From Acidimicrobiales bacterium (GTDB taxonomy: Bacteria; Actinomycetota; Acidimicrobiia; Acidimicrobiales; SZUA-35): 64,000 nt of DNA. Made by a program: the position numbers and the translations under genes. The stretch covers positions 124,001 to 188,000 of the forward strand of contig JANQPB010000006.1 in assembly GCA_028285495.1 (NCBI GenBank), written 5' to 3'. Positions 21,164 to 28,539 of the stretch are shown here, in pieces. Every line of letters starts with the position of its first letter. Position 1 is the first letter of the stretch. The notes beneath the pieces were generated by a model. That model had not been told where the DNA came from, ran no database searches, and saw only the letters and a list, made by a program, of their open reading frames with translations.

Positions 21164-21973
21164 ATGCGCAAGGCGCTTCAGTTTGTCGCGGCCATCACCC
21201 TGGCCATCACCCTGCCCATGCTCTTCCTGGCTCCGGCCGATGCCCAGGATGGTGCCCGGATCCACCTGATCCACGGCATCCCCGGCGTCGACGTCGACGT
21301 CGAGGCCGGCGGCGAGAACGTCTTCGAGGGCTTCTCCTTCGGTGACACCCAGGACCTGTCCGGCCTCGCCGGCGCCACCCTCGAAGGCGTCCGGGTCAAG
21401 GCCGCCGGGACCGACACCGTGGCCATCGACGCCGGCGACATCGAGCTGCCGGCCAGCGGCAACTTCACCGTGATCGCCCACCTCGGCGCCGACGGCACCC
21501 CGACGCTCGGCGTGTTCGAGAACGACGTCTCGACCATCGCCGCCGGTGAGGGTCGCCTGACCGTCCGTCACACCGCCGCCGCTCCCGAGGTCGACATCCT
21601 GGCCAACGGCGAGGCCGCCTTCAGCGGCGTGGCCAACGGCGCCGGTGGTACCGTCGACCTGCCCGCCGGCACCATCTCGGCCTCGGTCGTGCCCGCCGGT
21701 GAGACCGAGCCCGTCGTGATCGGCCCGGCCGATCTGCCCATCGCCGAGGGTCAGCACCTGCTGGTCTACGCCGTCGGCTCGCTCGACGACGACACCCTGA
21801 CCGTGCTCACCGAGACGATCGACGGGCTGCACAGCAACCCGGACCGCATCGACACCGGCAACAGCGTGCCCCAGACCGGCTCGAACGCCGCTCTGATGCT
21901 GCTGGTGGCCGGCGTGGCCGCCGCCGCTGGCGCCGGCACCCTGGTCGTCGCTCGCAACCGGGCCCAGGCCTGA
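21164..21973 (+). CDS. Surface DUF4397 protein with sortase signal
   Basis: 269 residues from ATG 21164 (MRKALQFVAAITLAITLPML); the track start at 21059 is too long. A cleavable signal peptide ends near APADAQD. Two DUF4397 beta-sandwich repeats follow, starting at ARIHLIHGIPGVDVDVEAGG and at GRLTVRHTAAAPEVDILANG. The C-terminus is a cell-wall sorting signal: VPQTG, a hydrophobic helix (AALMLLVAGVAAAAGAGTLVV) and RNRAQA. The next gene is a sortase, 13 bp away, so this protein is very probably its substrate. The function of DUF4397 on the surface is unknown. AAAGG lies about 10 nt before the start. Confidence 0.9.
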   Translation: MRKALQFVAAITLAITLPMLFLAPADAQDGARIHLIHGIPGVDVDVEAGGENVFEGFSFGDTQDLSGLAGATLEGVRVKAAGTDTVAIDAGDIELPASGNFTVIAHLGADGTPTLGVFENDVSTIAAGEGRLTVRHTAAAPEVDILANGEAAFSGVANGAGGTVDLPAGTISASVVPAGETEPVVIGPADLPIAEGQHLLVYAVGSLDDDTLTVLTETIDGLHSNPDRIDTGNSVPQTGSNAALMLLVAGVAAAAGAGTLVVARNRAQA

Positions 21974-21986
21974 TCAACAGCGGACC

Positions 21987-22745
21987 GTGAGCCTCTCTCT
22001 CCCTCTCGGCTCCGTGTTCCGCTCCCGACCGACCCGACTGGTGGCACTGGCTCTCGCCGTGCTGCTGGTCGGGTCGGCGTGTTCTTCGGCGACGACCGAC
22101 CCGTCGACCGCCGCCGAGGCCGGAGCCGATCAGGACGCCGCCACCACCGCCGAGCAGGCACCAGCGACGGATCCGGCCGATGACGGGCCGGCGGCCGGGC
22201 CGGACTCCGGCCAGGCGACGCCCGGCTCGGACCTCTCGGAGCTGGTCTCCGAGCTGCCGCCCGCCCCGGTCGGCTTCCCCATGGCCGACGACGGCCCCCA
22301 GCCGACCCGGCTGACCATCGAGTCGCTCGGCATCGACCGGGCCCCGGTCATCAGCGTCGGGGTCGAGACCGACGGGGCCATGGAGGTCCCACCGGCCGAC
22401 CAGGTCGGCTGGTACCGGTACAGCCCCCTGCCGGGCCAGGCCGGCTCGTCGATCCTCGCCGCCCACATCGCCTTCGACGGCGAGAACGGCGTCTTCGTCC
22501 GCCTCGCCGACGTCGAGCTCGGTGCGGTTGTCGAGGTGACCGACGAGGACGGCCTCACCCGGTCCTACCGGGTCGAGACCGTGGACCGCTATGCCAAGGA
22601 GCAGCTGCCCGAGGACATCGTCTTCGCCCGCTCGGGCGAGGAACGGCTCGTGCTCGTCACCTGCGGCGGACGGTTCGATCCGGAGCTGCGCAGCTACGAC
22701 GACAACGTCGTGGTCGTGGCCACCCCGCTCGACCAGGCCAGCTGA
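21987..22745 (+). CDS. Class F-type sortase with lipoprotein-like signal
   Basis: 252 residues. N-terminal signal ends with a lipobox VGSAC, then a 65-residue Ala/Asp/Pro linker, then a sortase domain from PTRLTIESLGIDRAPV. The catalytic set is visible: His in LAAHIAF (about 159), Cys in LVLVTCGG (about 226) and Arg in FDPELRSYDDN (about 235). Sortases cleave the sorting motif of exported substrates and link them to the wall. The neighbour with VPQTG is the natural substrate. Lipid anchoring of a sortase (if the Cys is used) would fix it outside the membrane. GTG start with no clear RBS. Confidence 0.9.
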   Translation: MSLSLPLGSVFRSRPTRLVALALAVLLVGSACSSATTDPSTAAEAGADQDAATTAEQAPATDPADDGPAAGPDSGQATPGSDLSELVSELPPAPVGFPMADDGPQPTRLTIESLGIDRAPVISVGVETDGAMEVPPADQVGWYRYSPLPGQAGSSILAAHIAFDGENGVFVRLADVELGAVVEVTDEDGLTRSYRVETVDRYAKEQLPEDIVFARSGEERLVLVTCGGRFDPELRSYDDNVVVVATPLDQAS

Positions 22746-22760
22746 GCCGGACCGACACGT

Positions 22761-22855
22761 CGTCGTCGGTCAGGCCGAAGGTCCTTCGTCGTCGGTCAGG
22801 CCGAAGGTCCGTCGTCGTCGGTCAGGCCGAAGGTCCTTCGTCGTCGGTCAGGCCG
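22761..22855. repeat. 26-bp tandem repeat array between convergent genes
   Basis: Three full units CGTCGTCGGTCAGGCCGAAGG(TCCTT) at 22761-22786, 22787-22812 and 22813-22838 plus a 17-bp partial unit. One base differs (CCGT for CCTT in copy 2). Each unit holds CGAAGGTCCTTCG, a near palindrome. The last partial unit contains the stop codon of the minus-strand methyltransferase gene. It may act as a bidirectional terminator region or simply mark slippage. Confidence 0.85.
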
Positions 22856-27479: not shown

Positions 27480-28539
27480 CACCGGCCCGGGCCCGACACA
27501 CAGCCCGGCCTCAGGCCGGGGCCCGGGATACAGCCCGGCCTCAGGCCGGGGCCCGGGATACAGCCCGGCCTCAGGCCGGGGCCCGAGATACAGCCCGGCC
27601 TCAGGCCGGGGCCCGAGATACAGCCCGGCCTCAGGCCGGGGCCCGAGATACAGCCAGGCCGTCGCCGAGGCCACGAGCGCCGGGACCCCCGTCGTCGCCC
27701 TCGAGACCACGATCTTCTCCGAGCTGGGTCTGCCCGGCCCGTCGAACCGCGAGGCCCTCGACCGGGTCACGGCGGCCATCGAGGCCGGCGGGGCGGTACC
27801 GGCCCTGACCGCCGTGCTCGACGGGCAGCTCCGCATCGGGCTCGACGTGGCCGAGCACGCTCGCATCTGCGGGCCGGCCCGCAAGGTGGCGGCTCGCGAT
27901 CTGCCCGTGGCCATGGCCGGAGGCTGGGACTACGGGGCCACGACCGTGTCGGCGTCGGTCACCCTGGCCGCCGCCGCCGGGATCCCGGTGTTCGCCACCG
28001 GCGGCATCGGCGGCGTCCACCGGGGCTGGGCCACGACCGGCGACGTCAGCGCCGACCTCCCGGCCCTGGCCCGCCACCCGGTGATCACCGTGACCGCCGG
28101 GGCCAAGGTCTTCCTCGACCTGGCGGCCACCGTCGAGTACCTCGAGACGGCCTCGGTCCCGGTGCTCGGCTGGCGCTGCGATCGCTTCCCCGCCTTCCAT
28201 GCCCCCACCTCCGATGTGGCGCTCACCACCAGAGTCGAGTCGGCCGAGGAGGTTGCGGGCATCGCCCGGGCCCACTGGGCGATCGGCGGCGGCGGGATCG
28301 TCGTCGCCGCCCCGGTGCCCGAGGCCGACGCCATCCCGCTCGACGAGCTCACCGACCTGGTCGACCGGGCGCTGGCCGAGGTCGGCGAGGTCTCGGGACC
28401 GGCGGTCACCCCCGAGGTCCTCGGCCGGCTCGGCGCGCTCAGCGGCGGCCGGACCGTCGCCGCCAACCTGGCCCTGGCCGAGCACAACGCAGCCGTGGCG
28501 GCCGAGATCGCCGGGGCGCTGGCCTCCGTCGGCCCGTGA
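27472..28539 (+). CDS. psuG: Pseudouridine-5'-phosphate glycosidase with N-terminal repeat extension
   Basis: 355 residues, about 50 longer than usual. The catalytic domain begins at SQAVAEATSAGTPVVALETTIFSELGLPGPSN, followed by GATTVSASVTLAAAAGIPVFATGGIGGVHRG and PVLGWRCDRFPAF, all diagnostic for the PsuG/IndA family. It reversibly splits pseudouridine 5'-phosphate into uracil and ribose 5-phosphate; no kinase PsuK is adjacent. Before it are five copies of a 10-residue unit (YSPASGRGP[GR]) encoded by 30-bp tandem repeats. No start codon exists between the repeats and the domain, so the repeats are translated or the start lies within them. Overlaps the lipoprotein and the next gene. Confidence 0.9.
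   Translation: MSDTGPGPTHSPASGRGPGYSPASGRGPGYSPASGRGPRYSPASGRGPRYSPASGRGPRYSQAVAEATSAGTPVVALETTIFSELGLPGPSNREALDRVTAAIEAGGAVPALTAVLDGQLRIGLDVAEHARICGPARKVAARDLPVAMAGGWDYGATTVSASVTLAAAAGIPVFATGGIGGVHRGWATTGDVSADLPALARHPVITVTAGAKVFLDLAATVEYLETASVPVLGWRCDRFPAFHAPTSDVALTTRVESAEEVAGIARAHWAIGGGGIVVAAPVPEADAIPLDELTDLVDRALAEVGEVSGPAVTPEVLGRLGALSGGRTVAANLALAEHNAAVAAEIAGALASVGP
27501..27650 (+). repeat. Five 30-bp tandem repeats inside psuG
   Basis: Unit CAGCCCGGCCTCAGGCCGGGGCCCGRGATA, five copies in exact 30-bp register from 27501 to 27650 and a partial unit after. Each holds the palindrome CCCGGCCT-C-AGGCCGGG (8-bp arms). Only G/A at one position and the last bases vary, indicating recent expansion. 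The unit is a multiple of three, so copy change keeps the frame. Confidence 0.95.

Follow-up and report, generated by a model that had tools for sequence, protein, structure and literature searches.

A conserved non-LPXTG tail element associates DUF4397 proteins with adjacent class-F-like sortases and is a likely sorting signal

The window (the whole 64,000-nucleotide stretch of Acidimicrobiales DNA that was analysed) encodes a tandem-DUF4397 protein directly upstream of a class-F-like sortase, and a dedicated pairing of the two is well supported. The tail of the DUF4397 protein carries a conserved element, PDRIDTGNS, that is likely, judged from its conservation, to be the recognition tag of the sortase. 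In the model that we favour, and which as a whole we hold with good confidence, the pair is a dedicated unit in which PDRIDTGNS is recognised, the ectodomain is moved to a cell-wall precursor and the adjoining VPQTG is a chance look-alike. After export by way of its signal peptide, the DUF4397 protein would stay anchored in the membrane through the helix and basic residues at its C-terminus, and a lipid on Cys32 together with a flexible linker of about 70 residues would tether the sortase on the outer side of the membrane. Recognition of the pattern P-x2-[VI]-x-[TSA]-G-x-[SGA] would be followed by cleavage between Thr231 and Gly232 and by transfer of the ectodomain to the precursor, and the module of two beta-sandwiches would then be displayed on the wall, where it may meet a putative binding partner.

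The genome of the window has a G+C content of 70-75%. Both genes lie on the plus strand with a gap of 13 bp between the substrate stop and the sortase start, in agreement with the coordinates, strand and spacing of the original prediction, and the pair is flanked by genes for an AMP-binding enzyme and a SpoU methylase (Table 1). In L044-L046, the three closest relatives, one or both of these genes are again neighbours of the pair. A 26-bp tandem repeat (3.7 copies) was found immediately 3' of the sortase gene at window positions 22760-22855, and a 30-bp tandem repeat (5.9 copies) at 27484-27660, at the start of an open frame, encodes SPASGRGPGY repeats.

Table 1. Features of the DUF4397-sortase locus (positions in the window).
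Feature	Position	Strand	Evidence
Substrate gene: secreted tandem-DUF4397 protein with C-terminal sorting region, 269 aa	21164..21973	+	PF14344 E 2.4e-24; Gram_pos_anchor E 3.3e-5
Signal peptide, aa 1-27, ends ADA	21164..21244	+	Read from sequence; unstructured in AlphaFold2 model
DUF4397 beta-sandwich domain 1, aa 31-119	21254..21520	+	Pfam; AlphaFold2
DUF4397 beta-sandwich domain 2, aa 129-219	21548..21820	+	Pfam; AlphaFold2
Proposed sorting motif PDRIDTGNS, aa 226-234	21839..21865	+	Column conservation; motif/partner association
VPQTG, aa 235-239	21866..21880	+	Unconserved; chance frequency
C-terminal transmembrane helix and basic tail, aa 242-268	21887..21967	+	AlphaFold2 helix 242-268
Sortase gene, class-F-like, GTG start, 252 aa	21987..22745	+	PF04203 E 1.8e-19; NF033748 138.6 bits; sortase fold
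Lipobox-like Cys32 (VGSA|C)	22080..22082	+	Kept in 24/26 sortases of the window's clade
Sortase catalytic domain, aa 106-247	22302..22727	+	pLDDT mostly 90-98; Foldseek to sortases from 7.8e-9
Catalytic His160	22464..22466	+	59/59 in alignment A3
Catalytic Cys226	22662..22664	+	59/59 in alignment A3
Probable catalytic Arg235	22689..22691	+	Arg in 44/59 rows

Two stretches of the 269-aa protein were matched by DUF4397 (PF14344; E = 2.4e-24), and the protein has the layout of a sorting substrate, namely a signal peptide, a C-terminal helix and a basic tail. The hydrophobic C-terminal anchor proposed earlier was borne out by the Gram_pos_anchor match and the AlphaFold2 helix. Sequence searches against solved structures returned no match for either the DUF4397 protein or the sortase. 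In Foldseek the DUF4397 domains matched the PepT1/PepT2 ectodomain (E = 8e-7), a similarity that was put down to common beta-sandwich architecture and not to function.

The second gene of the pair encodes a protein with the sortase superfamily domain (PF04203; E = 1.8e-19) and the sortase fold. AlphaFold2 gave a confident catalytic domain (residues 106-247) preceded by a flexible region, and Foldseek matched it to solved sortases from E = 7.8e-9, with pilus class C sortases among the top matches. Of the catalytic His, Cys and Arg set of the superfamily, His160 and Cys226 were invariant in the 59-row alignment, and Arg, probably Arg235 in the window sortase, was found in 44 rows. The best class model was class F (NF033748), which is in line with the class F-type sortase first proposed, but the score of 138.6 bits lies below the 166-bit cut-off and we therefore call the enzyme class-F-like only. 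In a quick, midpoint-rooted tree of 117 sortases, the rows over the class F cut-off fell in a clade of their own (26 rows; SH-aLRT 99) that also held some rows below the cut-off, and the DUF4397-paired sortases lay outside this clade with the single exception of L105, its only member with a DUF4397 neighbour.

Conservation of the pair was assessed in 61 genomes (the window's own and 60 relatives), with a sortase match at E <= 0.001 found in 54 and DUF4397 in 39. Neighbourhoods were read for about 118 sortases from the relatives, Micromonosporaceae, Microbacterium, a Nitriliruptorales MAG and Exiguobacterium. Among the 90 tree rows outside the class F clade (the long-branch outlier L126 left out), a DUF4397 gene lay directly upstream in 84. 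The other six comprised three loci cut by contig ends (L018, L042, L064), one with the DUF4397 gene about 6 kb from the sortase (L084) and two with a neighbour that was unflagged by the DUF4397 search but carried a matching tail (L096, L099). Many pairs overlap by 4 bp and nearly all others are within about 110 bp of each other. The gene pair is thus conserved beyond chance in dozens of genomes, and these counts support the view that the sortase has one adjacent substrate; the search for sortase orthologues without a sorting-signal neighbour yielded only the three contig-end loci and three with a matching tail nearby. The original prediction had considered a single adjacent substrate unusual, and such pairs are instead widespread across actinobacteria. 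At L090 (1-4701, minus strand) the DUF4397 protein and the sortase lie in one open frame without a stop; this contig contains a block of Ns and repeated sequence close to the sortase end, an assembly fault is possible, and the locus was left out of the counts.

The N-terminus of the sortase reads ...LVALALAVLLVGSAC (Cys32), which is a lipobox-like ending, and lipid anchoring of the enzyme is likely from this pattern, although Gly at -3 makes it a weak form judged by pattern alone. The N-terminal lipobox had been predicted, with a non-conserved Cys named as a refuting outcome, and within the window's own clade the Cys was kept, beyond chance, in 24 of 26 sortases. It was also found in all three sortases of a neighbouring set, 14 of 20 from Micromonosporaceae, all three from Microbacterium and 9 of 26 canonical class F sortases, and by pattern in none of the 31 of a sister group; all calls were pattern-based, with three corrected by eye. 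Since the Cys is absent from the sister group, lipid anchoring is not general to all such pairs. The genome encodes a signal peptidase II (PF01252; E = 1.9e-29).

Alignment of 45 homologues of the DUF4397 protein left only four invariant columns (G50, G196, P226 and G232), of which P226 and G232 lie inside PDRIDTGNS and none in VPQTG. Residue 229 was I or V and residue 231 T, S or A in 100% of the homologues. The motif had originally been placed at VPQTG; the conserved element is instead IDTGNS with an upstream Pro, just upstream of those letters. The pattern [VIA]x[TS]Gx[SGA][GPNLV] occurred in 78 of 85 sortase-adjacent DUF4397 tails compared to 5.6% expected by shuffling, an enrichment that the shuffles overstate because the pattern was derived from the same sequences. 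A profile built from 37 tails gave 50 matches, distributed over 37 genomes. For 46 of these, the gene immediately downstream in the same orientation encodes a class F sortase. Those 37 genomes contained 60 class F sortases, 14 of which had no profile match at the threshold, several of these with a visible tail.

A further set of 58 DUF4397 proteins, whose tails and neighbours were read, was drawn from 297 genomes across the phylum and from the relatives' DUF4397 genes away from sortases. It was mostly new, with L182 and the proteins of the relatives not fully independent. Related sequences had served to define the motif, and it was only after Ala had been seen in place of Thr, in three new tails and several earlier near-misses, that Ala was admitted at this position. 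An anchor plus the motif was present in 24 of the 58 proteins, including L192 (VNTGGE), which was assigned by eye, and 21 of these 24 had an adjacent sortase; the exceptions were two loci at contig ends (L206, L207) and one with the sortase 6 kb away (L204). In the same set, an adjacent sortase was found for none of the six anchored proteins with an LPXTG tail and none of the 28 proteins without a tail anchor. Loci L151-L155 and L205 encode DUF4397 proteins with true LPXTG-like tails and have no adjacent sortase in the stretch read, and these proteins are probably handled by a housekeeping sortase.

Two LPXTG models, TIGR01167 and Gram_pos_anchor, exceeded their cut-offs on the VPQTG stretch, and VPQTG directly precedes the helix in the AlphaFold2 model, as would be expected if either the neighbouring sortase or the fourth sortase of the genome, which is not class F, cut it at the Thr238-Gly239 bond. 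We nevertheless consider such cleavage quite unlikely. Columns 235-239 were unconserved in the alignment of 45 homologues and Thr238 was not common to them, and in the last 60 residues of the 85 sortase-adjacent DUF4397 proteins two LPXTG-like motifs were seen compared to 1.9 expected by shuffling, with no strict LPxT[GA] in any of the 85. The DUF4397 proteins that do have a true LPXTG were those without an adjacent sortase (0 of 6). The window protein therefore has no conserved LPXTG-like pentapeptide despite its TIGR01167 score, and VPQTG, the sorting motif of the original prediction, was rejected as such: its letters are present but, as judged from conservation and shuffles, they are a chance look-alike. 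As three close relatives retain [LV]P after GNS, a minor role for this stretch is possible.

A different reading of the tail is a membrane anchor with a conserved linker that is not cleaved, the sortase having other substrates or binding the DUF4397 protein as a regulator. This would fit with the lack of a visible phenotype in the Actinoplanes quadruple deletion, and the support for processing is sequence-based. It is unlikely, however, given that the motif tracks the sortase gene and not the anchor alone (LPXTG-anchored DUF4397 proteins occur without the neighbour), that the order of motif, helix and basic residues equals that of a sorting signal, and that the genome has no other protein with a strong tail-profile match. 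Pilus class C sortases, which have a C-terminal membrane helix, were among the top Foldseek matches, and the enzyme might in their manner link substrate copies to each other instead of to the wall. The model of the window sortase has no such helix, and the locus has a single substrate gene and no shaft and tip set, which makes linking of this kind very improbable even though SrtB of oral streptococci gives a ladder profile of AbpA (PMC4974636). Recognition of PDRIDTGNS and transfer of the ectodomain to the wall precursor remains the reading that we prefer.

Within the window's own genome the tail profile gave three strong matches (E <= 2e-6; next 0.009), one per class-F-type sortase, and the pairing is thus 1:1 for all three. 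All three partners are rows of the profile, and the informative part is therefore the lack of further matches. The fourth sortase of the genome (contig C38) had a weak class F match of 30 bits. On contig C14 (223307-224280; L009) the gene before the third class-F-type sortase encodes a protein that lacks DUF4397 and has a GGADTGAGG tail, an arrangement also found beside other canonical class F sortases.

The remaining pair, on contig C3 (L010, 3671-7140), consists of a paralogous DUF4397 gene followed by a sortase without a lipobox. Its substrate (933 aa from stop to stop) contains, in order, a kinase-like domain, a membrane helix, a Thr/Glu/Ala/Pro-rich stalk and two DUF4397 domains, followed by VPTGDSNLL, a second helix and a basic tail. 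The kinase-like part was common to this protein and 20 relatives, with the internal helix found by hydropathy in nearly all. A profile of 20 kinase-like parts matched the solved bacterial kinases PknA/PknB (E = 2e-12), and Pfam Pkinase was matched in 10 members of the set; the domain was not detected by Pfam on the single long C3 paralogue and was revealed only by the alignment profile. The aligned sequences lack both the HRD Asp and the DFG, and the domain is therefore a pseudokinase. In the sister group without the lipobox Cys, which includes the C3 paralogue, the sortase is paired with a pseudokinase that spans the membrane, has DUF4397 as its ectodomain and ends in the same tail, and this protein is possibly tied covalently to the wall.

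Cutibacterium acnes SrtF was the first class F member to be studied. The window sortase resembles class F sortases (NF033748) in its best-matching class, its fold and its His/Cys/Arg set, and canonical members in the same genomes likewise have a neighbour with a sorting-type tail, GGADTGAGG. It differs from them in its score below the cut-off, an apparently separate place in the tree, its DUF4397 partner and a lipobox where they have a plain N-terminal helix. For class F sortases the physiological role has been described as unknown, and Actinoplanes missouriensis with all four deleted had no visible phenotype (PMC13251363), which weighs against the favoured model. In that species SrtF1 and SrtF4 lie beside AMIS_11010 and AMIS_36440, secreted proteins that end in a helix and a basic tail and were suggested as possible substrates; the 2026 study set these two aside for want of a known pentapeptide (PMC13251363). 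The DUF4397-sortase pair is present at the Paractinoplanes loci L020, L024 and L033, and we would expect AMIS_11010 and AMIS_36440 to be of the same kind. The GVDTG sorting domain (NF058571) has the same layout and an xDTG-type motif, and differs from the DUF4397 tails, which have [VI]-[PND]-[TSA]-G-[NDT]-[SG]-[GP]. It matched 19 of the 37 tails at E <= 0.05 and was over its cut-off on the C14 partner, and on the window protein it scored 14.1 bits (whole) and 18.5 bits (tail alone), below the cut-off of 29. SrtB and AbpA of oral streptococci are likewise one accessory sortase and one adjacent substrate with its own non-LPXTG signal, but SrtB is a class B sortase, the signal is LPKTS cleaved T|S and the substrate is unrelated (PMC4974636). 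A search of the available literature on DUF4397 with sortase, lipoprotein sortases and GVDTG found nothing relevant. A one-substrate accessory sortase is already known from SrtB-AbpA, and the present variant is set apart by its DUF4397 family, a signal of its own and the lipobox.

The conserved signal makes it possible to predict whether a DUF4397 protein comes with a sortase of its own, and so provides concrete candidate substrates and a candidate cleavage site; the conserved element also corrects the automatic LPXTG annotation and may explain class-F-adjacent proteins without a known pentapeptide. More tentatively, and with more doubt than confidence, we suggest that actinobacterial class-F-like sortases work as private sortase-substrate pairs with a non-LPXTG signal, and that in one branch a membrane-crossing pseudokinase is fixed to the wall via its DUF4397 ectodomain, forming a cytoplasm-wall link that could sense wall tension or integrity. 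If true, processing of the pseudokinase would be a new way of coupling the cytoplasm to the wall.
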